Shown here in pieces: positions 8,934 to 23,529 of a DNA stretch of 41,996 bases. The notes beneath the pieces were generated by a model. The model did no database searches and was not told where the DNA came from. It worked only from the letters and a program-made list of their open reading frames with translations. Within the stretch, counting starts at the first letter, position 1, and each line of letters begins with the position of its first letter. This DNA is from Hyphococcus sp. GTDB taxonomy: Bacteria > Pseudomonadota > Alphaproteobacteria > Caulobacterales > Parvularculaceae. Position numbers and translations under genes: made by a program. The stretch spans positions 1 to 41,996 of the forward strand of contig JAJFGE010000172.1 of the NCBI GenBank assembly GCA_021776295.1, in the 5' to 3' direction.

Positions 8934-9006
8934 GATGACGCCTTACCGGGGCACAACAGCGCCGCACCCACTTTACTGAAAGGCTATGGTAGCAAGTTGG
9001 GCGCAA

Positions 9007-9037
9007 TTAAAAAAGGGCGCGGAATGCCCGCGCCCTT
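9007..9037 (-). terminator. Intrinsic terminator of hsp20
   Basis: On the minus strand a perfect 10-bp GC-rich stem (AAGGGCGCGG / CCGCGCCCTT) with a 5-base loop is followed by TTTTTTAATT. It lies about 37 bases past the hsp20 stop codon, a textbook rho-independent terminator. Confidence 0.85.
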
Positions 9038-9039
9038 AC

Positions 9040-9060
9040 AAGTATAGAGGGAATATACTT
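9040..9060. other. Perfect 7-bp inverted repeat between hsp20 stop and terminator
   Basis: AAGTATA and TATACTT flank a 7-base spacer. It is AT-rich, unlike the terminator stem beside it, and stands in the 3' untranslated region of hsp20. Its role is unknown. Confidence 0.35.
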
Positions 9061-9073
9061 GGGTCCAGTCGCC

Positions 9074-9535
9074 TTATGCGGCGTCTTGATCCTTCAGAAC
9101 TTTGATATTGGTCGCCTCGCCGCCATTGATCGCGAACTTTCGCGGCTTCATGGCTTCAGGGATCTCGCGTTTTAAATCAATATTAAGCAAGCCATTGACC
9201 AATGAGGCGCCGGCGACCTTGACGTGCTCGGCGAGCTGGAAGCGGCGCTCAAACGAGCGGCCGGCAATGCCCTGATAAAGGAATTCCTGACCGTCATCGC
9301 CATCCTTGCGGGCGCCGGTGATGGTCAATGTGTTTTCACGAATCTCAAGGTCGAGATCGGCTTCGCCGAAGCCAGCGACCGCGAGCGTGATGCGGTAATC
9401 ATTGTCGTCGAGCCGCTCGATATTATAGGGCGGATAGCCGGTGGATTCTGCTTTGCCGACGCTGTCGAGCAAATCAAAAACCCGGTCAAAACCGACCGTC
9501 GAGCGATAAAGGGGGGTTAAGTCAAATGTACGCAT
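9074..9535 (-). CDS. Hsp20 / alpha-crystallin small heat-shock protein
   Basis: 153 residues starting MRTFDLTPLYRSTVGFDRVFDLLD, the usual opening of IbpA-type proteins of alphaproteobacteria. The alpha-crystallin domain spans about residues 35-130 and ends in the conserved A-x-x-x-N-G-L-L strand (ASLVNGLLNIDL). These proteins bind unfolding clients and hold them for DnaK/ClpB. The ATG at 9533-9535 is chosen because AAGGAGG stands 8 bases upstream; an in-frame ATG at 9539-9541 is only two bases from that site. An RpoH-like promoter and a ROSE-like thermometer precede it and a strong terminator follows, so it is a single-gene heat-shock unit. Confidence 0.92.
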   Translation of the reverse strand: MRTFDLTPLYRSTVGFDRVFDLLDSVGKAESTGYPPYNIERLDDNDYRITLAVAGFGEADLDLEIRENTLTITGARKDGDDGQEFLYQGIAGRSFERRFQLAEHVKVAGASLVNGLLNIDLKREIPEAMKPRKFAINGGEATNIKVLKDQDAA

Positions 9536-9624
9536 AGTCATATCCTCCTTGGATAAGCGAGGTTTCACACATGTTTCCGCCAAATGGCCGGGAACACGCA
9601 AACAGAGCCAACTGGCCTCCGTCC
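9536..9624 (-). promoter_or_regulatory. ROSE-like RNA thermometer in the hsp20 5' leader
   Basis: The predicted leader is about 89 nt. Its last hairpin (9544-9562, read on the minus strand) pairs CCUC-G-CUU with AAG-GAGG around a 4-base loop, so the whole Shine-Dalgarno is sequestered and one G is bulged opposite it. The pairing strand contains UCGCU, the U-Y-G-C-U signature of ROSE elements. Upstream, GCC-AUUU-GGC extended by CC/GG and GUU/AAC, and GCC-AGUU-GGC, can form further stem-loops, as in known ROSE leaders. ROSE elements melt at heat-shock temperature and release translation of small heat-shock genes. The pairing is seen in the sequence; the thermometer function is inferred. Confidence 0.78.
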
Positions 9625-9630
9625 TATTTG

Positions 9631-9658
9631 AGATAGGCGCCGCATTTTGGGTTTCAAC
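9631..9658 (-). promoter_or_regulatory. RpoH (sigma-32)-type promoter of hsp20
   Basis: Read on the minus strand: GTTGAA, then CCTATCT, with 17 bases between TTG and CCTATCT. This fits the alphaproteobacterial heat-shock pattern CTTG-N16-18-CYTATNT with one change at the first base. The position predicts a start about 89 nt before the hsp20 ATG, which gives the leader described for the thermometer. Confidence 0.72.
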
Positions 9659-9737
9659 CCCGCGTGAGAGTGTGCAGATGCGCGTGGACCGTGGGCAAAA
9701 GCATGGTAAATGGAGGCCGTTATATGGGAGCGATGAA

Positions 9738-10628
9738 ATGAGACGAGTTCAGTATTTGTTTTTGGCGGTTGGCGTGGCGGTGCTTGCGGCTTGCGGCGGA
9801 GAGCCGGAAGGCGCAGCGCCGCAAGAACAGGCGGCGCCCGACAATGGCGCGGTTTTGGCGACCGTTCTTGCAGGCGGCCACCGCACCGACGAGGAGCGCG
9901 CCCGCGACGCCTTTCGCCACCCTTCGCAAACGCTCGCCTTCTTCGAGGTTGAGCCCGGCATGACGGTGGTCGAGGCCTGGCCCGGCGGCGGCTGGTATAC
10001 GCAAATCATCGCCCCCTATCTGAAGGCCGGCGGCGGCATATATTATGGTGCAAGTTTCTCACCCGAGGGCGCCAGCCAATACGCGCAGACCTCGCTCAAC
10101 GCGTTTAATAAAACCTATCTCGACAAGCCCGACCTTTATGGCGATGTGCGGCTCACCATCCTTGGCAAGGGCGGCGATATGGCGCCGGCAGGCGTTGCGG
10201 ATGTGGTTTTAACCTTCCGCAATGTTCACAACTGGCAATCAAGCGGCGTCACTGAGGCTTATTTCAAAGAATTCTACGATGCGCTGAAACCAGGCGGCGT
10301 GCTTGGCGTGGTTGAGCATCGCGCCGACGGCGCCGAATTGCCGCGCGACGGAAGCAGTGGTTATGCGTATACGGATGATGTGATTGCGCTGGCTAAAGGA
10401 GCCGGATTCAACCTTGAAGGCGCTTCAGAAATAAACGCCAATCCGAAAGACGCCAAAGACCACCCGTTTGGGGTGTGGACCTTGCCGCCGGTTCGGCGCT
10501 CGGCGGCGATGCGCGGCCAGGAAGACCCCGACTTTGACCAAACGGTCTATAATGCGATTGGCGAGAGCGATCGCATGACGCTAAAATTTCGCAAGCCCAT
10601 TGCCGCTGACGGCGCGTTGCTGGAATAG
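9738..10628 (+). CDS. Lipoprotein with predicted class I SAM-methyltransferase fold (COG4798-like)
   Basis: 296 residues from the ATG at 9738, which has GGGAG 7 bases upstream. The N-terminus is a signal peptide with lipobox LAAC (VGVAVLAACGG), followed by an Ala/Pro/Gln-rich linker. From about residue 50 the protein matches the predicted methyltransferase family that opens LAGGHRTDEERARDAFRHP and carries VVEAWPGGGWYT as its modified motif I; DVVLTFRNVHNW and LGVVEHR follow. Such an enzyme would sit outside the cytoplasm, where SAM is not expected, so it may bind another ligand. It is the first gene of an operon with an SCP2-like protein and a hydrolase. Confidence 0.8.
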   Translation: MRRVQYLFLAVGVAVLAACGGEPEGAAPQEQAAPDNGAVLATVLAGGHRTDEERARDAFRHPSQTLAFFEVEPGMTVVEAWPGGGWYTQIIAPYLKAGGGIYYGASFSPEGASQYAQTSLNAFNKTYLDKPDLYGDVRLTILGKGGDMAPAGVADVVLTFRNVHNWQSSGVTEAYFKEFYDALKPGGVLGVVEHRADGAELPRDGSSGYAYTDDVIALAKGAGFNLEGASEINANPKDAKDHPFGVWTLPPVRRSAAMRGQEDPDFDQTVYNAIGESDRMTLKFRKPIAADGALLE

Positions 10629-10955: not shown

Positions 10956-11875
10956 CAGATTTTATTCGTATACCGTCCAATCCGGTCCCGGACGGCGCAG
11001 AGACATTTATGTTCGCCGCACCCGACGGCGCTCAACTGCGCGGCGCCTTCTTCCCCGTAGACGATGCGCGCGGCACGATTATTCTGGAGCCTGGCTGGGC
11101 GGAATTTATCGAGAAATATTTCGAGACCATTGGCCGGCTTCACGCCCGCAAATTCAATGTTGCGATGATGGACTGGCGCGGACAGGGTCTGTCCGACCGG
11201 GACAGCGCCCCCAAAGCGAAATGGAAAAACTATTTCCATATCCTCCGCGAGGATTTGCGCCATTTCACTGAGGCGCATGTCAAACCGCGCTTCGATGCGC
11301 CGATGATGTTGATGACCCATTCGATGGGCGGCATGCCGGCGCTGATGCTGCTGGCGGACGGTTATGGCGGGTTTGAGCGCGCGGTCCTGTGCGCGCCGAT
11401 GACCCGGCTTTTCGCCGGGCCAGCCAATGCGGTATTCACCATCGTCAGCACGCTCGCTAGCGCCGCCGGGCTTGGCGCCGCGCCGGTGACCAAACAAGAC
11501 GACGCCCCTGAAGCGTTTGAGGGCAACATCCTCACCTCCGACCCGGCGCGTCATGAACGCTTCCGGCAGCTGCAACTGGCCGAGCCGAGCGCGGCCAACG
11601 CCGCGCCAACCTTTGGCTGGGTCCATGTCGCCACCAAGACCAGCAAAGAAATGCATCAGCAAGGGTTTTTTGACAATCTACAAATCCCGATACGGATTAT
11701 TACCGCCGGCGAAGAAAAACTGATTGATGGCTCGGACCACGAGACCATCGCCGCACAAAGCGATCGCATTGAACGGGTCATCATTCCCGGCGCGCTGCAC
11801 GAAATCATGATGGAGCGCGACGGTTTGCAGGAGCTTTACTGGAAATCGGTAGATGAATTTGTCGCGGTGCATTAG
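10952..11875 (+). CDS. Alpha/beta hydrolase, monoacylglycerol lipase/lysophospholipase type
   Basis: 307 residues. The fold is shown by the oxyanion region (EPGWAEFIEKYFE), the strand MDWRGQGLSDR and the nucleophile elbow THSMGGMPA with catalytic Ser. The acid is probably in AGEEKLIDGSDHE and the base is His in IPGALHEIMMERD. It would cleave ester bonds of lipids such as lysophospholipids or monoglycerides. No signal peptide is visible, so it acts in the cytoplasm or at the inner face of the membrane. It is the last gene of the methyltransferase/SCP2 operon, and its stop codon is 3 bases before a dispersed palindromic repeat that may end transcription. Confidence 0.87.
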   Translation: MTDFIRIPSNPVPDGAETFMFAAPDGAQLRGAFFPVDDARGTIILEPGWAEFIEKYFETIGRLHARKFNVAMMDWRGQGLSDRDSAPKAKWKNYFHILREDLRHFTEAHVKPRFDAPMMLMTHSMGGMPALMLLADGYGGFERAVLCAPMTRLFAGPANAVFTIVSTLASAAGLGAAPVTKQDDAPEAFEGNILTSDPARHERFRQLQLAEPSAANAAPTFGWVHVATKTSKEMHQQGFFDNLQIPIRIITAGEEKLIDGSDHETIAAQSDRIERVIIPGALHEIMMERDGLQELYWKSVDEFVAVH

Positions 11876-11878
11876 CGC

Positions 11879-11985
11879 CTAGAGCAAAATGCGTTAAATG
11901 TGAATCGTGCATTTTACTCTAGATTCTTTCGTAGTCGCATCGCGCGACGCGAAAGCCGTTGCACACTTTTCGCTCGATGCTCTAA
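11879..11985 (-). repeat. Bipartite palindromic repeat, copy A
   Basis: About 107 bp between convergent genes. The left arm is a 14-bp inverted repeat (CTAGAGCAAAATGC / GCATTTTACTCTAG, one G-T pair) with a 16-base loop. The right arm ends GATGCTCTAA and has an inner CTTTCG / CGAAAG stem. In reverse complement it aligns end to end with copy B at 32903-33006, sharing AGAGCAT, AAGTGTG, ATGCGACTA, ATCTAGAG and TTGCTCTAG in the same order. The first base triplet of its right end (TAG of TTAGAGC) is the stop codon of the SDR gene. The form resembles palindromic intergenic elements common in alphaproteobacterial genomes. Confidence 0.8.
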
Positions 11986-12920
11986 GGGCGCGACCACTGA
12001 AATCCGACAAGCTTTTCGCTTTCTTGCCACAGACGCGCAGCGGTTTTTTTGTTGCGCGCGCGCAGCGCCACGCTCGCGTCGCCCACGGGCCCGCGCGCAT
12101 CGGCAAAACCTGTCGGCCCGTAATAGGCGCCGGCAAGCGCCTCCTCGCCCGCCGCCGCCAAAACCGTTGGAATGGCGCCCTTTTTGGCGGATTGCGCCAT
12201 CAGCCGGTTGGTAATTTTGTACAACCCGTTCAAAAATCCTGCGGGACCGGTGCTTTGCAATTGCGTATCGGAGTAGCCCGGATGACAGGCGATACAGGAA
12301 ACCGAACTACCGGCCGCGGTTAATTTCCGGTCGAGCTCAAACGCGAACAAAATATTGGCGAGCTTGCTTTGGGTATAGGCGGTTGTCGGATCATATCGCT
12401 TGGTCAGCATTAAATCGTCAAACTGGATCTTGCCATATTTGTGCGCGATGCTGGACAGAACGACAATGCGCCCTTGCGCCACCTCAACGCGGTCAAACAA
12501 CAGTCCCGCCAACAAAAAATGCCCGAGATGGTTGGTGCCGATTTGCATTTCAAACCCGTCCGCGGTCTTTAATTGCGGCGTCTGCATGATGCCGGCATTG
12601 TTGACCAGCGCATCGAGTTTGCCAAAGCGGTTTTTAATTTCCTCCGCCGCCTGACGAACCGAGGTGAGGCTGGCGAGATCGAGGGTTACATCCTCAACTA
12701 TGCCTTTTGCGACCGCGGCAATTTCATCAATCGCAGCGGCGGCTTTTTGTGGGTTGCGACAGGCGATGACGATATCCCCGCCAGCCGCGCCAAGCATCTT
12801 CGCCGCCTCCAGCCCGATGCCGGAATTGCCGCCAGTGATCAGATAGGTTTTGCCCGCAAGATCGCCGAGCCGGTCCGGCGTCCAGTTGGAAAAACCGCTA
12901 TGTTTAATTTTCCTGCTCAT
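11982..12920 (-). CDS. SDR family oxidoreductase (retinol-dehydrogenase-like)
   Basis: 312 residues. TGGNSGIG near residue 30, NNAG near 110 and YTQSKLAN (catalytic Tyr and Lys) near 190 define a classical SDR. The sequence after LAGKTYLITGG and the long tail past residue 230 (GFLNGLYKITNRLMAQSAKKGAIPTVLAA) match the retinol-dehydrogenase / WW-domain-oxidoreductase-like branch, often annotated simply as oxidoreductase. The substrate is unknown. The start ATG is at 12918-12920. The last codon pair, CCT TAG, lies at the edge of repeat copy A, so the repeat supplies the stop. Confidence 0.85.
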   Translation of the reverse strand: MSRKIKHSGFSNWTPDRLGDLAGKTYLITGGNSGIGLEAAKMLGAAGGDIVIACRNPQKAAAAIDEIAAVAKGIVEDVTLDLASLTSVRQAAEEIKNRFGKLDALVNNAGIMQTPQLKTADGFEMQIGTNHLGHFLLAGLLFDRVEVAQGRIVVLSSIAHKYGKIQFDDLMLTKRYDPTTAYTQSKLANILFAFELDRKLTAAGSSVSCIACHPGYSDTQLQSTGPAGFLNGLYKITNRLMAQSAKKGAIPTVLAAAGEEALAGAYYGPTGFADARGPVGDASVALRARNKKTAARLWQESEKLVGFQWSRP

Positions 12921-12987
12921 CTGCGCGTCTCCATCGGTGGCTGGGTTTCAGTCGATACAAAATCCGTAGACGTTGCAAGGCCCGCCT

Positions 12988-13803
12988 TCACCCGGCCAGC
13001 ACCTTCAACGCCGCCGCATGCAGCGCCGGCGTCGCGGCGGCGACGGTCTCACCGCGCGCATCACTACCCACCGGCGCGCCAGACCAGTTGGTGATCACCC
13101 CGCCAGCGCCTTCAACCACAGGCGCAAGGGCGGCATAGTCGTGATGACTAAGCCCTGCCTCGACAACGAGATCAAGCTCGCCATGCGCCAGAAGAGCGTA
13201 TGCATAAGCGTCCATGCTGAACCGCGCGAGACGCGTCTCGTCCGCCAGACGCGCAAAGGCCGCCGCTTCCTCATCATAGATATACCCGGCTGGGCGTGGG
13301 CGTGGATCGGTTGTCGAAATCCGCGCCGTGGACAAATCTTCAACGCCGCTGGTCCGGCAGTCTTTTTCGATCGCGTTATGGCGAAACCACGTTGCGCCAT
13401 TCGCGGCGATCCAGCGCTCATCCGTATAGGCTTGATCTATCAACCCAAGCACCGGGCGCCCTTCATATTCAAGCGCAATAAGCGTGGTCCAACCTGGAAC
13501 CCCGCACACGAAAGCGCGGGTTCCATCAATCGGGTCCAGCACCCAGCGCCATGGGCCTTCACCTTGCGTCTCGCCAAATTCTTCGCCGATAATTCCATGG
13601 GCGCGATAGGTTTTGGAAATCATCTCGCGCATGACGCGTTCGCCCTCGCGGTCAGCGTCGGTCACCGGATCGAAATTGGCGCCCGCCTTATTGGAGACCT
13701 CTAAGCCGCTGCGAAAACGCGGCAGGGTTTGCGCCCGCGCCGCCTCGGCGAGACGGGTCGCGAAATCAACATATTGGGTTATTTCTGATGTTGAAAAAGA
13801 CAT
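12988..13803 (-). CDS. hisN: Histidinol-phosphatase, inositol-monophosphatase family (HisN)
   Basis: 271 residues. GEEFGE, WVLDPIDGTRAF and the C-terminal SHHDYAALAPVVEGAGG carry the metal ligands of the Mg-dependent phosphatase superfamily. The wording DPIDGTRAFVCGVPGW and the HDYAAL variant of the usual WDxAA motif fit HisN, the histidinol-phosphate phosphatase of histidine biosynthesis in actinobacteria and alphaproteobacteria. The ATG at 13801-13803 has no Shine-Dalgarno: the base before it is the last base of a perfect 12-bp hairpin. No later start would keep the conserved N-terminal helix. Confidence 0.85.
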   Translation of the reverse strand: MSFSTSEITQYVDFATRLAEAARAQTLPRFRSGLEVSNKAGANFDPVTDADREGERVMREMISKTYRAHGIIGEEFGETQGEGPWRWVLDPIDGTRAFVCGVPGWTTLIALEYEGRPVLGLIDQAYTDERWIAANGATWFRHNAIEKDCRTSGVEDLSTARISTTDPRPRPAGYIYDEEAAAFARLADETRLARFSMDAYAYALLAHGELDLVVEAGLSHHDYAALAPVVEGAGGVITNWSGAPVGSDARGETVAAATPALHAAALKVLAG

Positions 13804-13832
13804 GCCGCAGCGATCATGACGATCGCTGCGGC
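13804..13832 (-). promoter_or_regulatory. Perfect 12-bp hairpin abutting the hisN start codon
   Basis: GCCGCAGCGATC and GATCGCTGCGGC flank a 5-base loop. On the minus-strand transcript the stem ends directly at the hisN ATG and is followed by ATGTCTTTTT, so stem plus U-run look like an intrinsic terminator whose tail is the hisN coding start. It could end the HTH transcript, or control hisN by masking the initiation region. No separate promoter for hisN is recognised. Confidence 0.6.
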
Positions 13833-13881
13833 GCTGTGCAAGTCAGCCAGTGCAGGCAGGGTAGGCAAAGTTAGCGGAGCC

Positions 13882-14277
13882 TCAGTGCTCCATCGACATC
13901 GCCTTGGCGAGATCGAGCAGCCGCCGGCGCGGCTCTTTATTGAGCTGATAGTAATACCGCACCAGATCGATAGTCTCTTTATCATCCAGCAGTTCCGCAG
14001 CCGGCGCTTCGGCAAAACCATATTCGCCGTTCAGATCGTATTCGACTTCGGGCTCATGCCCGTTCATGCCGTCAAAGAAAAACGACACCGGCACATCCAG
14101 CGCCCTGGCCAGCGACCAAAGCCTGGAAGCCGACACGCGGTTAGCGCCGCTTTCATATTTCTGGATCTGCTGAAACCGGATATCGACCGCTTTGGCCAAT
14201 AATTCCTGCGTCAGCCCGAGAAGACGCCGGCGCGCGCGAAGCCGCCGGCCCACATGAACGTCTACTGGATGCACCAT
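13882..14277 (-). CDS. XRE/HTH transcriptional regulator
   Basis: 131 residues. The N-terminal 70 residues form a Cro/C1-type HTH: VGRRLRARRRLLGLTQELLAKAVDIRFQQIQKYE, then SASRLWSLARALDVPVSFFF. The C-terminal 60 residues are acidic, then helical (ETIDLVRYYYQLNKEPRRRLLDLAKAM), and probably mediate dimerisation. Proteins of this layout are frequent in alphaproteobacterial core genomes; their targets are mostly unknown. GGAG stands 7 bases before the ATG at 14275-14277. It is upstream of hisN on the same strand, 78 bases apart, with a terminator-like hairpin between them. Confidence 0.85.
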   Translation of the reverse strand: MVHPVDVHVGRRLRARRRLLGLTQELLAKAVDIRFQQIQKYESGANRVSASRLWSLARALDVPVSFFFDGMNGHEPEVEYDLNGEYGFAEAPAAELLDDKETIDLVRYYYQLNKEPRRRLLDLAKAMSMEH

Positions 14278-14553
14278 ATTACCACTCCACTTATCGCCGA
14301 GCCGGAGCGCTATCGTCGCGCCGTCGGCTATTCGAGCGGTTAATCAGCAAAGCGCGTGCCGCACTGGGGTGTTTTCCTGCGCTGCTCGCCCTATGCGGGT
14401 TAAAACCCTTGAAAACCAAGGTGGTAATGATGCGGAGATATGGTTAATGCCGCGCCGGAGATTTGCTGGCGGCGTGCGTTGTTGTCTCGTTCTGCGGGCA
14501 GTGTTTAGGTTTGATACAAGTTACGGTTGAAGCGCCAATAAAGCGCCGCCGCG
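14278..14553. other. Gene-free interval upstream of the HTH regulator
   Basis: 276 bases with no credible ORF. It holds a short inverted repeat, CCTTG-aaaac-CAAGG at 14407-14421, without a U-run. It must contain the promoter of the HTH gene and the 3' end of the glycosyltransferase transcript, but no clear promoter consensus was recognised. Confidence 0.4.
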
Positions 14554-15732
14554 TCAATCGATCATCTTGGCTGAGCGCAGCCAGAACTGTTCATCGAACC
14601 CTGGAATTTCAAGATTTGCGATAAACTGGCGCGAGGCGGCTTCCCATGAAAACCTCTCGGCCCATTTGCGGCAATCTTCAGGACCCCGATATTCATAAGC
14701 GTCGAGACAGGCCTGGCGCAGATCTTCGTTCATCGCACCGCAGCCAGGCGGCGCGCCATCGAGAATTTCAAGCGGGCCGCGCACCGGATAGGACGCCACC
14801 GGCACGCCGCAGGCAAGCGCTTCGACATTGACCAGGCCAAATGTGTCGGTGCGCGAGGGAAACACGAAAACATCCGCAGCCTGATAATGTCGGGTGAGGT
14901 CATCTTCATATTTCGGCCCGGTAAAGATCGCGTCTTTGTATTTGGCTTCCAGCTCTTCGCGTTGCGGGCCTTCGCCGACAATCACCTTGGTGCCGGGCAA
15001 ATCCAGCTCGATAAAGTCTTCGATGCTTTTTTCCACCGCCAGCCGGCCGACATAGAGATAGACCGGGCGTTCATATTGGTCGAATAGCGAGCGGTCGCCG
15101 GGCGTGAATTTTTTCAGATCAACGCCGCGGGTCCAAAGCTTCATATCTGAAAACCCACGCTCTTCCAGCTCCTCCCGGAGCCCCGGCGTCGCCACCATCA
15201 TGGTCTCGCCGGCATTGTGGAAATCTTTCAAAATCGCGTAGCCCCACTGGATCGGCACATTCCAGCGCTCATTGGCATATTCGGCAAAGCGGGTGTGAAA
15301 GCTGGTGGTAAACGGATAGCCGCGGCGTTTGCAAAACCGCCGCGCCGCGCGCCCAATTGGCCCTTCGGTAGCGATATGAACCGCGTCGGGCTGAAATTCG
15401 TTAATCATTTTCGCCACTTTGCGGTTCGGCAATAGCGACAGGCGGATTTCCGGATAAGACGGCAGCGGGATCGATTTAAAATCGTTCGGCGTCACATAAA
15501 GCACTTCATTACCAAAGCCCCGGAGGATTTCGCCGAGCGTATCCAGCGTCCGGACGACGCCGTTGAGCTGCGGCTTCCACGCATCCGTGGCGATCACCAC
15601 CCTCAACCCGCCCTCCACTGTCGGCATCACGAAGCGGGGCTTGGCGCGGGTCAGCCGGCCGACGCCGGAGCCGAGCCGACGTAGGGCGCTTTTTTTGCGT
15701 TTCGGCGTTTCATCGCGCGGTGTCTCGGTCAT
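14554..15732 (-). CDS. GT4-family glycosyltransferase (GDP-mannose/UDP-sugar alpha-transferase type)
   Basis: 392 residues. After a basic N-terminal stretch of about 40 residues, the Rossmann N-domain starts RVVIATDAWKPQLNGVVRTL, the donor-independent loop of MgtA/PimB-like enzymes. The C-domain shows GRLAVEKSIEDFIEL, VGEGPQREEL and SRTDTFGLVNVEALACG with the E-x7-E-like donor site. Relatives transfer mannose, glucuronate or sulfoquinovose to diacylglycerol or to lipid carriers, so a glycolipid role is likely. It stands alone between an N-formylglutamate amidohydrolase gene and an HTH gene, all on the minus strand. Confidence 0.85.
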   Translation of the reverse strand: MTETPRDETPKRKKSALRRLGSGVGRLTRAKPRFVMPTVEGGLRVVIATDAWKPQLNGVVRTLDTLGEILRGFGNEVLYVTPNDFKSIPLPSYPEIRLSLLPNRKVAKMINEFQPDAVHIATEGPIGRAARRFCKRRGYPFTTSFHTRFAEYANERWNVPIQWGYAILKDFHNAGETMMVATPGLREELEERGFSDMKLWTRGVDLKKFTPGDRSLFDQYERPVYLYVGRLAVEKSIEDFIELDLPGTKVIVGEGPQREELEAKYKDAIFTGPKYEDDLTRHYQAADVFVFPSRTDTFGLVNVEALACGVPVASYPVRGPLEILDGAPPGCGAMNEDLRQACLDAYEYRGPEDCRKWAERFSWEAASRQFIANLEIPGFDEQFWLRSAKMID

Positions 15733-15858
15733 AGGGGCTTTCTAAGCGCTGATTTTAGAGCGGCGCTTGGAGTAGTCCACGCGCGGCGGATTGGCAATCC
15801 ACATGCACGAAATGTCCCGCACCATGCTGCGCCGCAATATTATGCTTGGTTTTCGCTT

Positions 15859-16764
15859 CTATTCCGCCGCCTGGGCCATCCATAGATCGTCGGGGCGCAA
15901 TTTGGTGATCCGCTCTATCAACGCGGTCATGGCTTTGCGCAAGTCGCCAAACCCGGCGGTGCGGGTGATGCGCTGCTCATCGAGATACAGCGTGCGGTTC
16001 ATTTCCACCTGGAGAATATGCACGCCCTTGGCCGGGCGGCCATAGGAGACGGCGACATAACCGCCCGCATAGGGCGCATTGCGCGTAACTTCATAGCCGA
16101 GGCCCGCGAGCGTTTCTTCCGCGAGCGCTGTTACTACGGGCGCGCAGGACGAGCCAAACCGGTCGCCCAGCACAAAATCAATTGGCGCTTCGCCGCTTCT
16201 GAACGGCGCACCGCCAGCTGACGGCATCGAATGACAATCGATCACCACCGCGCAACCAAACTGCGCGCGCGCCTCTTCGATAAGCCGCTCCAGCGCTACA
16301 TGATAGGGATCGTAACACTCCGCCAGGCGGCGGCCGGCGTCGGCAAAGTGCAGCTTGCGGTCATAGATATCCTCACCGTCAGCGACAATGCGCGGGACCA
16401 CGCCAAGTCCTGCAATCACCCGGCTGGAGCGGGTGTCGGCGCCCGGCGGCAGGCGGTCAGCGAACATTCGCGGGTCGAGCTCGTCGCGGGCGCGGTTAAC
16501 ATCGACATAGGCGCGCGGGAACAAAGCGCGCAACAATGGCGCGCCATGGCGCGGCGCATCGTCAAATATCAAATCGACATAAGAGTCTTCCGACTGGCGC
16601 AGCTGGTGCCGGTCGAGGCGGCTTTTGCGCAGCAAATCCTCTGGATAATCGCGGCCCGAATGCGGCGAGGCGAAAATCACTGGCGAGGCCAGCGTCTCGG
16701 GCGTTAATATCTCCACCGCATCACGCCCGTGATAGGGGCCACGCTGTTTGTGAGTTTCGGTCAT
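15859..16764 (-). CDS. N-formylglutamate amidohydrolase family protein
   Basis: 301 residues. SPVIFASPHSGRDYPEDLL near the N-terminus and VNRARDELDPRMF carry His and Asp/Glu residues expected for metal binding, followed by CAVVIDCHSMPS and LQVEMNRTLYLDE. These are the landmarks of the family that hydrolyses N-formyl-L-glutamate in histidine degradation; many alphaproteobacterial members away from hut genes have unknown substrates. It is divergent from cpdR, an arrangement I believe recurs in alphaproteobacteria. The ATG is at 16762-16764. Confidence 0.85.
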   Translation of the reverse strand: MTETHKQRGPYHGRDAVEILTPETLASPVIFASPHSGRDYPEDLLRKSRLDRHQLRQSEDSYVDLIFDDAPRHGAPLLRALFPRAYVDVNRARDELDPRMFADRLPPGADTRSSRVIAGLGVVPRIVADGEDIYDRKLHFADAGRRLAECYDPYHVALERLIEEARAQFGCAVVIDCHSMPSAGGAPFRSGEAPIDFVLGDRFGSSCAPVVTALAEETLAGLGYEVTRNAPYAGGYVAVSYGRPAKGVHILQVEMNRTLYLDEQRITRTAGFGDLRKAMTALIERITKLRPDDLWMAQAAE

Positions 16765-16953
16765 GACCTATCCAGGCTTGAAAATGATGCGACTTGGGGC
16801 ATGTTAGCGCGAGTTTGCAGGATTCGTTAAGACCCGATGGCATATTAGGGTCCGGCGGAGCGGTTTTTGCATTTCGCTTCTCACAGTCGAGCGAAGGGGG
16901 TTAACAGTCCCGATCTCGAACAGAGCGATAACGGAACATAGAGGCGGTACGCG

Positions 16954-17313
16954 ATGGCGGCGATTCTTTTGGCGGAAGACGATGATTCAATGCGGCGGTT
17001 TTTGAAAAAAGCGCTGGAGCGGGCTGGCCATGCGGTGGTTGACGCCTCTCAAGGCGATGAAGCGCTGACCGAATTACAGCTGCGCGAATTTGACCTCCTG
17101 CTCACTGATATCGTCATGCCGGTGATGGACGGCATTGAGCTGGCCCGCCGCGCCGCCGAAATCGACCCGGAAATGGCGATAATGTTCATTACCGGCTTTG
17201 CCGCCGTCGCCCTCAACGCCGCCAACCAGGCGCCGGAAGACGCCAAGGTCCTGTCTAAGCCGTTTCACCTTAAAGACCTGGTGCGCGAAGTCGACCGCGT
17301 GGTCGCCGCCTGA
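16954..17313 (+). CDS. cpdR: CpdR response regulator (ClpXP adaptor of the CtrA circuit)
   Basis: 119 residues, a lone receiver domain. The acidic pocket EDDD is at residues 8-11, the phospho-acceptor Asp is 52 in LLLTDIVMPVMDG, and Thr in MFITGFAAVA and Lys in VLSKPFH are conserved. The sequence follows Caulobacter CpdR closely (ILLAEDDDSMRRFL; PEDAKVLSKP) and ends in two alanines, as CpdR does. Unphosphorylated CpdR goes to the pole and primes ClpXP for CtrA, PopA-related and other substrates; CckA-ChpT phosphate switches it off. GAGG lies 9 bases before the ATG. Confidence 0.95.
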   Translation: MAAILLAEDDDSMRRFLKKALERAGHAVVDASQGDEALTELQLREFDLLLTDIVMPVMDGIELARRAAEIDPEMAIMFITGFAAVALNAANQAPEDAKVLSKPFHLKDLVREVDRVVAA

Positions 17314-17389
17314 GCACGCCTCAAGGCTTGCCACCCTCAAAAATTGCCGCTAGAGACCGGCCCCTCGAAAGCGGCCGCCAGCCGCCGCC

Positions 17390-17464
17390 GGGCGCATAGC
17401 TCAGGGGTAGAGCGCTACCTTGACATGGTAGAGGTCCCAGGTTCGAAACCCGGTGCGCCCACCA
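17390..17464 (+). tRNA. tRNA-Val, anticodon GAC
   Basis: A full cloverleaf of 75 nt with encoded CCA. The acceptor stem is GGGCGCA / TGCGCCC with discriminator A. The D stem is GCTC / GAGC, the anticodon stem CTACC / GGTAG holds TTGACAT (anticodon GAC), and the T arm is CCAGG-TTCGAAA-CCCGG. The middle T-stem pair is A-C rather than Watson-Crick. It lies 76 bases after cpdR and upstream of a toxin-antitoxin pair. Confidence 0.96.
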
Positions 17465-17609
17465 TTATTTATCTCGCGGCAATTCGCTACGCGAATGCCT
17501 CCGATGGGGCGGCCTGACCGGCCGACGCGCCGTCGCGCGTTTGCATCACCGAGTTCGAGTTCTCTTCACTCGCCTCCACCAGCCTTCGCCACTCACAGCA
17601 ATGACCATC

Positions 17610-17638
17610 TTGACAATTTGTATCCTATGGGATACATT
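17610..17638 (+). promoter_or_regulatory. Promoter with embedded operator for the toxin-antitoxin pair
   Basis: TTGACA (17610-17615) and TACATT (17633-17638) are 17 bases apart. Between and overlapping them lies GTATCC-TATG-GGATAC (17620-17635), a perfect 6-bp inverted repeat placed where an antitoxin repressor would block polymerase. The expected transcript start falls at or next to the toxin ATG at 17646, so the first gene may be leaderless. Confidence 0.65.
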
Positions 17639-17645
17639 CACGTCC

Positions 17646-17947
17646 ATGGAAGTACTGGAAACAGAGAATTTTTCCAAATGGCTCGTCAAACTGAAAGACA
17701 CCCAGGCACGCGCCAGAATTTTGGTTCGGATCGACCGGCTGTTACTCGGCAACCCAGGAGATGTGGCGCCTGTGGGCGACGGCGTATCGGAGATGCGCAT
17801 CCATTACGGCTCCGGTTTCGGGTATATTTCGTTCAACGCGGCGACACATTGATCGTCCTGTTGGCCGGAGGCGACAAAAGCACGCAAGGATCAGACATTA
17901 AAACGGCGTTGGCCCTCGCCGAAGAGACTAAAAAAACGGGCGCATAA
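17646..17947 (+). pseudogene. RelE/HigB-like toxin gene, frameshifted
   Basis: Two frames join into one 100-residue toxin. Frame one gives MEVLETENFSKWLVKLKD to SEMRIHYGSGF (58 residues); the next 42 residues, RVYFVQRGDTLIVLLAGGDK to the end, are in the -1 frame from 17819. The joint matches the family text exactly (GPGYRVYFVQRGD), so one base is missing at 17817-17822, or the ribosome slips back on TTC to TTT. Without a slip, frame one stops at 17850-17852 after 10 foreign residues. The family is the addiction-module killer group related to HigB (RelE fold), an mRNA-cleaving toxin. The antitoxin gene follows 18 bases later and is intact. Confidence 0.8.
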
Positions 17948-17965
17948 CAGACCAAGGAGCACGCC

Positions 17966-18256
17966 ATGCCAACCAAAACTACTCGCTGGGATTCTGCCAA
18001 ATATCTCGAAACGAAAGAGGATATCGCCGCTTATCTTGAAGCTGCGTTCGAGGATGGCGATCTCGCTCTCATCACCCAGGCGCTCGGCGCAGTGGCCCGT
18101 GCAAAAGGCATGAGTGAAATCGCGGAAAAAACCGGCCTCACCCGACCGAGCCTTTACAAAGCGCTTTGCGAAGACGGCAATCCAGAATTTGCGACCGTCA
18201 TGAAAGTGATGAAGGCGCTGGGGCTCGACATGAAGATTGTTGCGGCGGCGGCATAA
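17966..18256 (+). CDS. HigA-like antitoxin, HTH addiction-module antidote
   Basis: 96 residues with AAGGAG 8 bases before the ATG. The N-terminal third (TTRWDSAKYLETKEDIAAYLEAAFEDGD) is the toxin-binding part of the addiction-module antidote family. The middle carries a Cro/C1-like HTH (AKGMSEIAEKTGLTRPSLYKALCEDGNPEFATVMKVMKALGL). It would neutralise the upstream RelE/HigB-like toxin and repress the promoter at 17610. It remains intact although the toxin frame is broken, as expected if the antitoxin is still needed or if the toxin is made by frameshifting. Confidence 0.88.
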   Translation: MPTKTTRWDSAKYLETKEDIAAYLEAAFEDGDLALITQALGAVARAKGMSEIAEKTGLTRPSLYKALCEDGNPEFATVMKVMKALGLDMKIVAAAA

Positions 18257-18347
18257 ACGCGCCTCACGTAACAAAAACCATCTGCTCACGTTCTATGCCA
18301 GCAGTCTCGCTAATTTTTGCTCCCCGGCCCTGACTAACTGGCAAGAC

Positions 18348-18378
18348 GAAAAGCACCCTCAGACGGGCGCTTTCCTTT
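18348..18378. terminator. Bidirectional terminator between the antitoxin and YbjN genes
   Basis: GAAAAGC-A-CCC and GGG-C-GCTTTC form a stem with one A-C mismatch and a 6-base loop, followed by CTTTAA on the plus strand and by TTTTCGTC on the minus strand. It stands between two convergent genes and can serve both. Confidence 0.6.
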
Positions 18379-18400
18379 AATTCATCGGACTACGAATTTC

Positions 18401-19138
18401 CTACTTAAAATTCTTAATCTTGTTGCGCGGCAGGTCTTCAAGCTCGATTAGCCGCAAAATGTCGTCGGTGGCTTCGTCGAAGCTTTTATTGTGTCGCTCG
18501 GACATTGCCGGCGCATCCTCGATGGCGCCGGTCAGATGGACTAATCCCTTACGATTAAGAGACGCGGCGGCAAGGTCTCCGCTATAACCCTCAAGAGACA
18601 CCGTGCGCCCGGCGCTTGCCAGCTCGGCGTGGAACCGGCCCGCCAGAGTGAAAAAGTTAAGCAGCGAGGCGGCGACATTGCCGCGGGGAATGCCGAAGTC
18701 GGCGATTTCATAGCGGGTGATAAAAGCGCCGCTGGACTTGTCCAGCGCCGTTCTGGTGAACGGGTAGCGGTCATTAAACGCTCTGACGGTTTGCGAATTT
18801 GCATTGCCCTCATAGGGAGAGAATATCAATACGCCGATGCATTTTGAGGTTCCGTTCACGCGGCAGGCGGAGGGCTGCATGTAAAAGTTCAACGCCCCGC
18901 CGGCATTGGCGACAATCGCCGAGCTGCCGCCATCGACCGCAACCGCGCGCCACACGACACCAAGCTCGTCGAGAATGGGCCCGACCGACTGGACATCAAA
19001 ATCTGAGATGAGTGTTGTCGGATTGGCGACAACCGGTTGGTTATTCGCCGCGCCGGACAAACTGTTTTGCGCAGCTGCTGATGACAGCGCCGCCACAGCA
19101 GCAGCCATCACGCCTAAAAATTTATGCATATGCCCCAT
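18401..19138 (-). CDS. Exported YbjN-domain protein
   Basis: 245 residues from the ATG at 19136-19138, which has GGAAGGG upstream; the longer frame to 19423 overlaps rsmB and is not credible. The first 24 residues are a signal peptide (FLGVMAAAVAALSSAAAQ), probably cut after AAA. The mature part follows the YbjN pattern: ISDFDVQSVGPILDELGV, then SACRVNGTSKCIGVLIFSPYE, FNDRYPFTRTALDKSSGA and RGNVAASLLNFF. YbjN proteins adopt a fold related to type III chaperones and affect motility or surface traits in enterobacteria; the biochemical role is not known. It is convergent with the antitoxin gene and divergent from rsmB. Confidence 0.78.
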   Translation of the reverse strand: MGHMHKFLGVMAAAVAALSSAAAQNSLSGAANNQPVVANPTTLISDFDVQSVGPILDELGVVWRAVAVDGGSSAIVANAGGALNFYMQPSACRVNGTSKCIGVLIFSPYEGNANSQTVRAFNDRYPFTRTALDKSSGAFITRYEIADFGIPRGNVAASLLNFFTLAGRFHAELASAGRTVSLEGYSGDLAAASLNRKGLVHLTGAIEDAPAMSERHNKSFDEATDDILRLIELEDLPRNKIKNFK

Positions 19139-19292
19139 TACCCTTCCCCGGATACGCCCGGCGGACCCGTCCGCCGGAAGCCGGCAGCATAAGCGAAAAA
19201 TGCGCGCCCCGCAAAATATTCGCTCAATTACCCGTTTTTCGTGGCCCCTTTTTCGTGACATTGCGGGCGGGGCGTGGTTTACGCGGGGCCTT

Positions 19293-20621
19293 ATGACCCA
19301 ACCCCTCGAGCCCACACCCCAAACCGGCGGCGCCGGGATTGAAGCGCGCCGCGCCGCGCTCGATATCCTTGAACGTGTCGCCAAAGGCGCATCGCTGGAC
19401 GACGCCTTGAAGGACTGCCGCACATTTGACTTGCTGGAGGGGCCTGACCGTGGTTTTGCCCGGGCGCTGGCGAGTTGCGTTTTGCGCCGGCGCGGCTCGC
19501 TCGACCATGTGCTCGGCGCCTATATCGACCGGCCGCTGCCGAAGCGGGCAATCCGGGTGATGGATATTTTACGCCTCGCCAGCGCCCAGACTTTATTCAT
19601 GGGAACCCCCGACCATGCCGCGGTCTCGACTGCAGTATCGCTGGCCGGAGAACGGCGCGAAAATCTCGGCTATGCAAAACTCGTCAACGCGGTGGCCCGC
19701 AAAGTCGCCAAGAACGGGCCGGCGGTGGTGAAAAAACTGCCCGCGCGCGTTGATACGCCGGGCTGGTTGTGGCGCTCATGGGAGCGCGCCTATGGGGCGC
19801 AAACCGCGCGCGCCATCGCCGAAGCCCATCACAATGAACCGCGGCTTGATGTCACCTTGAAGGCGCCGGGCGCCGCAAACGAGTGGACAGACCGTCTTGA
19901 AGCGGAGCTTTTGCCGACCGGGTCTTTGCGCCGCGCCGGCGTCAGCGATGTGACGCAGCTTGCCGGCTTTGAAGAAGGCGCATGGTGGGTGCAGGACGCC
20001 GCCGCCAGCCTGCCGGCGCGGCTCGCCGGAGATGTCAGCGGCAAGACGGTGTTTGACCTTTGCGCCGCACCCGGCGGCAAGACGCTGCAATTTGCGGCCA
20101 TGGGCGCCAATGTCACTGCGGTTGATATTTCCGAGCCGCGGCTGGAGCGGCTGGTCGATAATCTGGCGCGCACCAACCTCACCGCGAGGCTCGTCACCGA
20201 AGATATTTTAAAATGGCGCTCGGAAGAAAAAGCCGACATCGTGCTTCTCGATGCGCCCTGTTCGGCAACCGGCACCATCCGCCGCCATCCGGATATTCCA
20301 TGGACCAAGTCTGAAACCGACATCGCCGCGCTGACATCGCTACAGGCGCGGATGCTCGATCACGCCATCGGTTTTGTAAAACCCGGCGGCATGGTGATCT
20401 ATTGCGTTTGCTCGCTGCAGCCGGAAGAGGGGGAAAAACAGGCCGAGGCGGCGCTGGCGCGCCATAAACATCTCGCCCGCAAACCGGTCCTGCCGGAAGA
20501 GATCGGCGGGCTTGCCGGCGGCGTTAACCGTTATGGCGATCTGCGCACCACGCCGGCAATGCTGGCCGAGGCCGGCGCCATGGACGGGTTCTTCGCCGCC
20601 CGCTTTATTGTTAACGATTAG
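19293..20621 (+). CDS. rsmB: 16S rRNA m5C967 methyltransferase family (RsmB)
   Basis: 442 residues from the ATG at 19293. The N-terminal 130 residues form the NusB-like RNA-binding domain (ARRAALDILERVAKGASLDDAL). The catalytic half has the SAM site FDLCAAPGGKTLQ, motif IV LLDAPCSATGTIRRHPD with one catalytic Cys, and motif VI YCVCSLQPEEGE with the second. These are diagnostic for the RsmB/NOP family, which methylates cytosine 967 of 16S rRNA in E. coli. Length and domain order are normal. The ribosome binding site is weak. It stands alone, divergent from the YbjN gene. Confidence 0.92.
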   Translation: MTQPLEPTPQTGGAGIEARRAALDILERVAKGASLDDALKDCRTFDLLEGPDRGFARALASCVLRRRGSLDHVLGAYIDRPLPKRAIRVMDILRLASAQTLFMGTPDHAAVSTAVSLAGERRENLGYAKLVNAVARKVAKNGPAVVKKLPARVDTPGWLWRSWERAYGAQTARAIAEAHHNEPRLDVTLKAPGAANEWTDRLEAELLPTGSLRRAGVSDVTQLAGFEEGAWWVQDAAASLPARLAGDVSGKTVFDLCAAPGGKTLQFAAMGANVTAVDISEPRLERLVDNLARTNLTARLVTEDILKWRSEEKADIVLLDAPCSATGTIRRHPDIPWTKSETDIAALTSLQARMLDHAIGFVKPGGMVIYCVCSLQPEEGEKQAEAALARHKHLARKPVLPEEIGGLAGGVNRYGDLRTTPAMLAEAGAMDGFFAARFIVND

Positions 20622-20770
20622 GCCTCTTTGACGGGCCCAAATCGGCTTATTTACGGGCCCCGCCCCTTGATCGGCGGGTCGCAACCCCCGATATTACCCA
20701 AAGAATTTATGACGCTAGGCGTTTGCCGGGCCTTGTGGCCCGGGCAACGTATGGAAAAGGACCAATGCCC

Positions 20771-21502
20771 ATGAACGACCCGCAACGACAGTTTGGCGGC
20801 GCTGCCGCCGGCGCCCGCACCGGCGCCGTCATTGACGAGGGCCTGCGCCAATACATGCTCGGCGTTTACAACTATATGGCGCTCGCCGTCGCCGGCACCG
20901 GGCTGATCTCGATGCTGATGGCCGGCAATGAGGCGCTGATGTTTCAGATCGCAACCACGCCGCTGAAATGGGTCGGCTTTGCCGGCATCCTTGGCATCGG
21001 GTTTCTGGCTCCGAAGATTATTTTCTCCGGCTCCAAAATTGCTGCGCACGGGATGTTCTGGCTTTATGCAGCGTTGTGGGGCGCGATGATTGCGCCAATG
21101 CTGTACGCCTTTCAGCAAGCCGGCGCTGCACAGGATATCTATCGCGCGTTCTTTATCACCGCCTCGGTGTTTGGCGCGGTGAGCCTTTATGGCTACACCA
21201 CCAAGCGCAACCTTTCCGCCATGGCGAGTTTTCTGTTCATGGCCACAGTCGGCCTCCTGATCGCGATCGTTGTCAATGCGCTTATTTTTCAGAGCGGCAT
21301 GATGAGCCTGATTACGTCGTCTCTTGTTGTTCTGGTTTTCTCCGCGATCACCGCTTACGAAACCCAGATGATCAAATCGATGTATCAGGAAGGCAGCGCC
21401 ACAAATGAACGCGCGGCGATCTTTGGCGCGTTTGCGCTTTACGGATCGTTTGTCACACTGTTTGTGCATATCCTCAATATTCTCGGGATTATGCGCGACT
21501 GA
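20771..21502 (+). CDS. Bax inhibitor-1 / YccA family membrane protein
   Basis: 243 residues from the ATG at 20771, 9 bases after AAGGA; an ATG two codons earlier is possible. The N-terminus is polar (PQRQFGGAAAGARTG), then seven hydrophobic segments follow from about residue 35. The family landmarks VFGAVSLYGYTTKRNLS and TAYETQMIKSMY, with the conserved Asp/Glu near the end, are present. BI-1 members are pH-sensitive calcium leak channels in some bacteria and interact with FtsH in others. It is a single gene with its own strong terminator. Confidence 0.9.
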   Translation: MNDPQRQFGGAAAGARTGAVIDEGLRQYMLGVYNYMALAVAGTGLISMLMAGNEALMFQIATTPLKWVGFAGILGIGFLAPKIIFSGSKIAAHGMFWLYAALWGAMIAPMLYAFQQAGAAQDIYRAFFITASVFGAVSLYGYTTKRNLSAMASFLFMATVGLLIAIVVNALIFQSGMMSLITSSLVVLVFSAITAYETQMIKSMYQEGSATNERAAIFGAFALYGSFVTLFVHILNILGIMRD

Positions 21503-21527
21503 CGCGTACTCCAACCCCAGGCCTCAC

Positions 21528-21556
21528 AACCCCCGCTTGCGAGAGCGGGGGTTTTT
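21528..21556 (+). terminator. Intrinsic terminator after the BI-1 gene
   Basis: AACCCCCGCT and AGCGGGGGTT pair perfectly over 10 bp around a 6-base loop and run into TTTTT. It begins 26 bases past the stop codon. Confidence 0.92.
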
Positions 21557-21627
21557 ATGACCGAGCTGTGACCTTACGTCATCAATTGCGATTTGCCCCC
21601 TCTCACCCCGGCGCATAAGGTTCGCCC

Positions 21628-22866
21628 ATGAGTGAAAGAGATTGTTACGGATTGCCGATCACCGGCGCGGGCGGCGATGCGGCGCGCGGCTATGACCATT
21701 ATGTGCGTGAATTTTTAAGTTATGGCGCAGAACTGCGCGCATTGTTTGAGGTGGCGGACGCTAATCCCGGCGCGCCGCTGCTCAATGCCCATGCCGCCGC
21801 GCTGCACATGGCGTTTGAAGGCGCTGAGGGTTGGGACTATGCAGCGCCCTATCTCGCCCGCATGCGCCAGACCCTCCGCGCGGGAAGCGAGCGCGAACGT
21901 CTGTTCTGCACAGCCGTTGAGGCATGGTCGCTGCTCGACTTTACCAGTGCGCTGACCGCGCTTGACGAGGTGACAGTGCGCTGGCCGGCTGATCTTTGCG
22001 CCATCAAATGGGGCCAGTATCACGCGTTTAATCTCGGCGACAGTCCGGCCTTGCTGCGGCTTGGCCGGCGCGCGGCGATCGCTCATGAACACGGGCCTTA
22101 TGTCCATGGCATGATCGCTTTTGCGCTTGAGCAAAACCACCAGCTCGAAGCGGCCGAAGAAGAGGGTTTGCGCGCGGTTGAGATTTCGATTGACGATGCT
22201 TGGGCGCATCATGCGGTCGCCCATGTCATGGAAACTCAAGGCCGCCCGAGGGAAGGCGCGCGCTGGCTAGACCATTGCGCCCATACCTGGGAGAAAAAAG
22301 GCGTCTTCATCCGCGATCATAATTGGTGGCATGCTGCGCTGTTTCGCCTGTCGCTCGGGCGCTATGACGAAGCGTTAGAGATTTTCGATGCGCGCCTATG
22401 GGGCGAATGGCCTGAATTCCCGCAGGAACAAATCGGCGCCGCCTCGATGTTGTGGCGGCTGGAACTGCGCGGCGGCGACGTTGGCGCGCGCTGGGCGCCA
22501 GTGGTTGAACAGGCCCGCACTAGAGCCGGCGAGCACCTGTTTCCGTTTCACGACCTCCACTATCTTTACGCGCTCGCCAGAGCCGGAACGGGGGGAGAAG
22601 CAGAAAAGTTTCTCGCCTCGATGCAACACAAAGCCGACGCTGCGCCGGGCGACGCCGGATTGGTCTGGAAAGAAATCGCCGTCCCCGCTGGCGCCGCGCT
22701 GATCGACTTCACAAAAGGGCGGCGCGGTGAAGCCGCGACGAAGCTCCAACCATTGCTCCGTGAGCTGCATAAAATCGGCGGCAGCCATGCACAACGTCAC
22801 ATCTTCGTGGAAACGATAGAGGCCTGCGCTGAAAATGCTGCCGATGCATCAACCATCGCGCATTAA
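21628..22866 (+). CDS. TTC38-like tetratricopeptide repeat protein
   Basis: 412 residues, no signal peptide. The protein is alpha-helical throughout, with degenerate TPR-like repeats. Landmarks of the TTC38 family are HAAALHMAFEGAEGW, IAFALEQNHQLEAAEEEGLRAVEI, DAWAHHAVAHVMETQGR and the very conserved IRDHNWWHAALFRLSLGRYDEALEIFD. The family is found in animals and in many alphaproteobacteria, and its function is unknown. It is a single gene between the BI-1 terminator and the convergent DUF2794 gene. The ATG at 21628 has AAGG upstream. Confidence 0.85.
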   Translation: MSERDCYGLPITGAGGDAARGYDHYVREFLSYGAELRALFEVADANPGAPLLNAHAAALHMAFEGAEGWDYAAPYLARMRQTLRAGSERERLFCTAVEAWSLLDFTSALTALDEVTVRWPADLCAIKWGQYHAFNLGDSPALLRLGRRAAIAHEHGPYVHGMIAFALEQNHQLEAAEEEGLRAVEISIDDAWAHHAVAHVMETQGRPREGARWLDHCAHTWEKKGVFIRDHNWWHAALFRLSLGRYDEALEIFDARLWGEWPEFPQEQIGAASMLWRLELRGGDVGARWAPVVEQARTRAGEHLFPFHDLHYLYALARAGTGGEAEKFLASMQHKADAAPGDAGLVWKEIAVPAGAALIDFTKGRRGEAATKLQPLLRELHKIGGSHAQRHIFVETIEACAENAADASTIAH

Positions 22867-22875
22867 TATCAGGGC

Positions 22876-23217
22876 TCAGGTAGCTAACCTTAACTTCTGA
22901 CGGTCAAAAATTCGCAACACCTGGCCGAGATCAGACCCGCGCTTCAGCACCGCGCCGGTCATCGACACCACCAGATAGGCGCCCTGTTTACGCGCCAGGC
23001 GCGGGCGCTTTTCAATCCGGTAAAGCGGGACTTCCGAGGCCTTGCGGAAAATTGAAAACACCGCCGCGTCCTCCAGATAATCAATCGCATAATCGCGCCA
23101 TTCCCCGGCGGCGACGAAATGGCCGTAAACGCCAAGGATACGCGTCAGCTCCGAACGGTTAAACGCCACCGGCTCGGTGCGGCGGCGCGGCGGGGAAACG
23201 GGAGAAATGGAGTGCAT
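22876..23217 (-). CDS. DUF2794 domain protein
   Basis: 113 residues from the ATG at 23215-23217; a GTG directly before it is also possible. The text YAIDYLEDAAVFSIFRKASEVPLYRIEKRPRLARKQGAYLV and VLKRGSDLGQVLRIFDRQKLRL is the DUF2794 signature, a family almost confined to alphaproteobacteria and without known function. The N-terminal 20 residues are basic and probably disordered. A perfect CtrA-type box lies about 85-100 bases upstream, which suggests cell-cycle control. It converges with the TTC38-like gene, 9 bases apart. Confidence 0.88.
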   Translation of the reverse strand: MHSISPVSPPRRRTEPVAFNRSELTRILGVYGHFVAAGEWRDYAIDYLEDAAVFSIFRKASEVPLYRIEKRPRLARKQGAYLVVSMTGAVLKRGSDLGQVLRIFDRQKLRLAT

Positions 23218-23275
23218 CACCGGAGATTTTCACCCCTCAGCCGGCAAACGGCAAGCCTAGAAAGGAAGTTTTTAC

Positions 23276-23353
23276 ATGGGCCCCGCCGCGCAAATCGTCC
23301 TTAATATCGCCTTAATTGACCCCAATCTGCGCCCCATTCAGCCGTCATATTAG
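23276..23353 (+). CDS. Possible 25-residue small ORF (weak)
   Basis: ATG GGC CCC to TAG encodes 25 residues (MGPAAQIVLNIALIDPNLRP and five more). It has a good AAGGAAG site 6 bases before the ATG, which is why it is listed. It overlaps the CtrA-type box used to read the divergent DUF2794 promoter, no family is recognised, and so short an ORF can occur by chance. Confidence 0.2.
   Translation: MGPAAQIVLNIALIDPNLRPIQPSY
23301..23315. promoter_or_regulatory. CtrA-type binding box
   Basis: TTAA-TATCGCC-TTAA matches the CtrA consensus TTAA-N7-TTAA perfectly. It is the only such match I found when scanning TTAA occurrences in the window. It lies 84-98 bases upstream of the DUF2794 start and 215 bases before the AEC transporter. 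The GC-rich background makes a chance match unlikely but not excluded. Confidence 0.6.
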
Positions 23354-23358
23354 CTGGG

Positions 23359-23440
23359 CCGGGCGGGCGCTATGGCTAGAGTTTCCGGTTTTAACCATCG
23401 CCCCCAGCCCCCGGGAGATCGCGCTTACTCACCCGCCCGG
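23359..23440. other. Long-range inverted repeat upstream of the AEC transporter gene
   Basis: CCGGGCGGG (23359-23367) and CCCGCCCGG (23432-23440) are perfect complements 64 bases apart. They could close a structured leader before the transporter gene. The gene-free interval 23221-23529 also holds the CtrA-type box and the weak small ORF; nothing else is recognised there. Confidence 0.3.
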
Positions 23441-23529
23441 CGTCCCTTTTCCCATCCATCCGCCCTAACGCAGCTTGACCGGCGCGCCCAACCGCATGAC
23501 AGACAGCGCCAGCCAATGTGGGAATGATC

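Follow-up and report, generated by a model that had tools for sequence, protein, structure and literature searches.

The window analysed here is a stretch of 41,996 nucleotides whose nearest database contigs are Marinicaulis, placed in taxonomy under Hyphococcus (Parvularculaceae). It carries on its minus strand a gene for a small heat-shock protein, hsp20. The product matches PF00011 (2.9e-17), is of the HSP20/IbpA type, and was the single match when the 3.08-Mb genome, which is 85.5% complete, was searched for HSP20. The features of the locus, from promoter to terminator, are as follows.

9652..9657, minus strand: -35 box TTGAAA of an RpoH-like promoter (strict pattern in 24/31 leaders)
9631..9637, minus strand: -10 box CCTATCT, with a transcription start expected near 9624
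9536..9624, minus strand: ROSE-like leader of 89 nt with three hairpins (sub-threshold matches to RF00435, RF01832 and RF02523; 89.8 bits with our own model R1)
9600..9624, minus strand: hairpin 1, bulged G at 9616 (98.4% of cells paired in 21 leaders; 3 pairs changed on both sides; predicted fold)
9569..9599, minus strand: hairpin 2, bulged G at 9588 (93.2% of cells paired in the upper stem, which has 5 pairs with changes in both partners, and 85.7% in the lower stem; predicted fold)
9544..9562, minus strand: hairpin 3, putative thermosensor, bulged G at 9558 (95.9% of cells paired, mostly invariant)
9544..9550, minus strand: Shine-Dalgarno (SD) sequence AAGGAGG, from the sequence
9074..9535, minus strand: hsp20/ibpA-type gene, 153 amino acids, start codon at 9535
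9009..9037, minus strand: intrinsic-terminator-like hairpin and T run 3' of hsp20, from sequence and fold

An additional in-frame ATG is found at 9539-9541 (minus strand), two codons 5' of the hsp20 start (ATG-ACT-ATG), and is absent from most relatives. On the other side of the gene, the region at 8999-9073 (minus strand) has a UUCCCUC loop and the terminator; it is similar to the 3' portion of the suhB/mmgR sRNA and scores 22.4 bits with RF00519 against a cut-off of 41. A comparable CCCUC motif close to a terminator is seen again in many relatives. Judged by its sequence, this region could be a 3'-UTR-derived sRNA or merely a terminator. RF00519 matches over the cut-off are present in 31/40 genomes, and in many of the genus they lie ~5-20 kb from hsp20; none was found in this genome (G000) or in its closest relatives (G006, G007 and G019). 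An mmgR sRNA gene within the window was likewise discarded as a candidate, there being none at 11000-24000.

The RpoH-like promoter described in the earlier note, TTG-N17-CCTATCT, is present exactly: on the minus strand TTG (9657-9655) is followed after 17 nucleotides by CCTATCT (9637-9631), i.e. TTGAAA-N14-CCTATCT. Transcription starting 6-7 nt past the -10 box, at about 9624, would give a leader of 89 nt (9536-9624), in agreement with the length of about 89 nt that had been predicted. A strict pattern, TTGAA-N14-17-C(C/T)(T/C/A)AnnT, was found at 24 of 31 Parvularculaceae leaders, compared with 0.1 (maximum 2) in dinucleotide shuffles, and the spacer is 15 in all but one of these 24. The other seven leaders keep TTGAA and have, by eye, a looser -10-like sequence, and a slightly looser pattern is located 5' of 52 of the 62 leaders outside Parvularculaceae. 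The RpoH1 consensus of S. meliloti is CTTGAA-N15-16-CCTATAT (PMC4843759). The hsp20 boxes (gTTGAA-N15-CCTATCT) fit this consensus, taken here as typical of alphaproteobacterial RpoH (sigma-32) promoters, and are conserved in relatives, so that assignment of the promoter to the RpoH type is supported at the level of sequence.

No rpoH gene was found in this incomplete genome, in which RpoD was the sole match. Since a search of 36 genomes for relatives gave an rpoH match above the cut-off in 32, incompleteness of the genome is the simplest reason for its absence. The exact promoter pattern occurs at two sites in the genome (hsp20, and 5' of a patatin-like gene) and before none of the other heat-shock genes; a second CTTGAA-N-CCTATNT was rejected as intragenic. 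One-mismatch matches numbered 16, versus 22 for the reversed pattern, which is chance level, and for this reason no RpoH regulon was built.

Within hairpin 3, the strand CCUC-G-CUU (9562-9555) is complementary to the whole SD sequence AAGGAGG (9550-9544), the two being separated by a 4-nt loop. The ROSE motif UCGCU (9560-9556, minus strand) is located on the strand facing the SD and contains the single bulged G (9558). When hairpin 3 is folded in isolation, RNAfold returns exactly the SD hairpin, at -6.1 kcal/mol and 37 C; sequence and fold thus confirm the earlier proposal that the last hairpin sequesters the full AAGGAGG with one bulged G and UCGCU on the pairing strand. UCGCU or UUGCU is present in 21/21 aligned leaders, and TCGCTT-N3-9-AAGGAG has a single occurrence in the 3.08-Mb genome, in the hsp20 leader. 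As far as can be read from the sequence, the SD is very probably sequestered below heat-shock temperature. Removing the bulged G in silico makes the SD hairpin more stable (-9.9 instead of -6.1 kcal/mol; RNAfold, 37 C), in agreement with other ROSE-like elements, whose heat response is weakened or abolished by the same deletion (PMC11342760; PMC3669281).

When the whole leader is folded, the pair probabilities of hairpin 3 are ~0.4-0.6, and the competitor is a UAUCC/GGAUA helix, a sequence pair that is limited to the window and its close relative L044. Nearest-neighbour folding of the whole leader predicts no thermal switch, with a mean unpaired fraction of the SD of 0.34-0.37 from 20 to 55 C. 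Because the standard energy rules omit the non-canonical pairs reported for ROSE, this result was treated as uninformative rather than as refuting a thermometer, yet it leaves a genuine weak point in the case.

The three-hairpin structure was evaluated in an alignment (A2) of 21 Parvularculaceae hsp20 leaders that includes the window. Standard pairs make up 94.5% of its paired cells, compared with 43-54% when the partners are slid. Ten pairs change on both sides, versus 4.2 in shuffles (0/500 shuffles as high), and the covariation score is 0.231 versus 0.137. Hairpins 1 and 2 account for most of the covariation. The SD helix varies little, as would be anticipated with the SD itself as one of its strands, and the loop of the SD hairpin is variable.

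A covariance model, R1, was built from A2, and its training sequences, including the window leader with its 89.8 bits, match by construction. Of the 36 genomes of the family, 29, including this one, have an R1 match at the start of hsp20 (28 with E < 1e-5), and a smaller locus search added two further genomes, G028 and G029 (leaders L031 and L027). Of the remaining five, three have no hsp20 match, one has the gene start at a contig end, and G030 has hsp20 with no R1 match. Matches independent of A2 include L025, L028, L030, L040, L041, L045 and L048. R1 also matches, again independently of A2, at the hsp20 starts of five genomes of a second family (four with E < 0.003, one with 0.28) and detects L096 (E = 0.097) and L102 (E = 0.0015), both of which exceed the RF00435 cut-off, thus tying the Parvularculaceae leader to classical ROSE. 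Weak additional matches (L132, L133, L134, L136 and L137; 19-29 bits) were dismissed as chance, since most are without an intact SD hairpin and that of L132 is antisense within a gene.

At Rfam gathering scores the window yields a single tRNA and no ROSE match. With E-value thresholds, the interval 9400-9800 gives matches to three ROSE models on the leader strand, with ends at or just beyond the start codon: RF00435 with 23.7 bits (cut-off 45), RF01832 with 23.6 (65) and RF02523 with 12.4 (43). The search with Rfam ROSE models, which the earlier note had put forward as a check, therefore came out in part: all three models match the leader strand, and all remain under their gathering cut-offs. 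In the whole genome, up to E = 10, the hsp20 leader is the single RF00435 match. By the features used in the literature, the leader very probably belongs with ROSE elements, as it directly precedes a small heat-shock gene (PF00011), has U(U/C)GCU paired with the SD in a 3'-proximal hairpin with a bulged G, and places three covariation-supported hairpins in 89 nt, where 2-4 hairpins in 60-100+ nt are usual. Since it falls short of the 45-bit gathering score, the leader is described here as ROSE-like and is not assigned to RF00435.

Taken together, the UCGCU/SD hairpin and the G bulged out of it, the three covarying hairpins, the sub-threshold but well-placed matches to three Rfam models and the R1 matches to the RF00435-positive leaders L096 and L102 support the ROSE-like identity given in the earlier note, thermal opening being attributed to the leader from the behaviour of the family. 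This would extend ROSE-type control to Parvularculaceae, where the Rfam cut-off misses the leader; a full-text search for Parvularcula returned no paper on RNA thermometers in the family. RF00435 exceeds its cut-off in 1/60 genomes, from another family of the order, and since the cut-off misses Parvularculaceae, ROSE thermometers are probably under-annotated in Alphaproteobacteria. Several ROSE elements occur in genome G053, from another family of the same order: on G053:C24 and G053:C44 (L112), RF00435 exceeds its cut-off twice, with two weaker matches close by, and nothing else in that group exceeds it.

In each of the three leader hairpins, a single G is bulged out of the 5' strand below the loop (9616, 9588 and 9558, minus strand). 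In predicted folds, we counted one kind of module, a hairpin whose 5' strand has a bulge of one nucleotide, 2-4 bp from a loop of 3-8 nt. The 31 Parvularculaceae leaders contain 75 modules (2.42 per leader versus 0.019 in shuffles; two or more in 27/31), and the bulged base is G in 75/75. A further 52 leaders contain 85 (1.63 per leader versus 0.010 in shuffles), of which 38 precede the SD hairpin, and here the bulged base is G in 85/85. Overall, G accounts for 160/160 single 5' bulges in 83 alphaproteobacterial hsp20 leaders, counts that refer to a module defined post hoc, after the folds had been seen, and that are not independent events, given the relatedness of many of the leaders (Reyranella or similar make up a large part). 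As a control, 3989 windows of 100 nt were drawn at random from the same loci; in these, G occupied 94/484 bulges, or 0.024 per window. The G is constant while the flanking pairs vary, as in cccgGcc/ggcgga, cgtcGtcc/ggaggcg, catcGcc/gggatg and cgagGccc/gggctcg, and in Rfam the consensus folds of ROSE, ROSE_2 and ROSE_3 likewise have an unpaired G in the 5' hairpin.

What the 5' hairpins of ROSE do is, according to PMC3669281, not fully understood, and the repeated bulged-G architecture offers a concrete handle on this question. The regularity in upstream hairpins was not reported in the literature searched, which did not extend to the founding B. japonicum ROSE paper. A speculative and rather doubtful proposal is that ROSE leaders are arrays of the bulged-G module, whose upstream copies are kept since IbpA-type small heat-shock protein oligomers recognise it via R93/Y34 for self-repression, so that thermometer and feedback would read the same RNA shape. 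The bulged G common to all the hairpins may in part account for the role of the extra ones.

The best explanation of the locus, and one that we hold with high confidence, is that hsp20 is under two layers of heat control, an RpoH-type promoter and, downstream of it, a ROSE-like RNA thermometer. On heating, RpoH activity would rise and hsp20 would be transcribed from about 9624. Sequence and comparison show three hairpins in the leader, the third of which pairs the whole SD with CCUC-G-CUU at low temperature. The bulged G would keep this hairpin weak, such that it opens at heat-shock temperature and allows ribosome binding, by analogy with tested ROSE elements. The conserved hairpins 1 and 2 most likely set hairpin 3 apart and ensure that it folds properly, or else protect the mRNA. 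Double control by RpoH and ROSE has been published for Pseudomonas ibpA (PMC3669281), and rhizobial small heat-shock genes have a ROSE element and are rpoH-dependent (PMC3989490); such control of hsp20 is thus expected and not new. Counting against this explanation are the absence of an Rfam match at gathering score, the lack of a predicted switch together with the competing helix, the failure to find rpoH, and the absence of the exact promoter from other heat-shock genes.

In Hsp20, the positions that we take to be equivalent to R93, Y34, R97 and K98 of E. coli IbpA are R, Y, R and R. R93, R97, K98 and Y34 are the residues that E. coli IbpA needs for self-repression (PMC10474464), and with the needed residues present, binding of Hsp20 to its own leader, as a third layer of control, is possible. 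It might be argued that the conserved leader is mainly a target of such feedback, or stabilises the mRNA at its 5' end, and that the SD hairpin plays only a minor part in sensing temperature. The equivalents of these four residues (PMC10474464), conservation of hairpins 1 and 2 beyond what masking of the SD requires, and the absence of a predicted thermal switch would all be consistent with this. However, the SD hairpin bears the full ROSE signature, tested members of which are heat-responsive (PMC3669281; PMC11342760), and feedback and sensing are compatible with each other, so that a leader of this kind with only a minor thermal role seems improbable.

The similar weights that RNAfold gives to the two helices in the window raise the question of whether the thermometer switches between hairpin 3 and the UAUCC/GGAUA helix instead of melting hairpin 3. 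This is very improbable, given that the alternative sequences are confined to the window and L044 while other relatives keep hairpin 3 without the alternative. Finally, a strong SD might have paired by chance with an upstream C/U-rich stretch behind an ordinary sigma-70 promoter, in line with the unmet Rfam cut-offs and the missing rpoH. Such a fortuitous hairpin is scarcely credible and already strongly disfavoured, since it would leave unexplained the family-wide covariation and near-invariance, the one R1 match per genome at the hsp20 start, and the strict promoter at 24/31 leaders where 0.1 are expected.

Among comparable systems, self-repression of IbpA via the 5' UTR is known from E. coli, C. 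neteri and V. harveyi (PMC10474464); the locus shares with these an IbpA-type protein with R93/Y34 equivalents and a ROSE-type leader, but that study tested gammaproteobacteria and included alphaproteobacteria by conservation alone. With ROSE_2 (RF01832) and ROSE_3 (RF02523), the gammaproteobacterial and Pseudomonas ibpA thermometers, the leader has in common a CUCGCU-type anti-SD strand and a bulged G. As is predicted for this locus, ibpA is controlled by RpoH and a thermometer (PMC3669281). These models differ in having fewer hairpins, and they match the leader below threshold (23.6 of 65 and 12.4 of 43 bits). The rhizobial ROSE family (RF00435, B. japonicum hspA ROSE1) differs in that the leader scores 23.7 bits against 45, in that the bulged G of hairpin 2 is absent from the Rfam consensus, and in that the SD helix here is fully paired save for the bulge. 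It shares with the leader the position before a small heat-shock gene and the arrangement of upstream hairpins followed by a 3' hairpin in which the SD lies opposite U(U/C)GCU and one G is bulged, and the RF00435-type hairpin 1 of Methylobacterium L102 (cgagGccc-GAAA-gggctcg) is like hairpin 1 of the window (ggagGcc-AGTT-ggctct).
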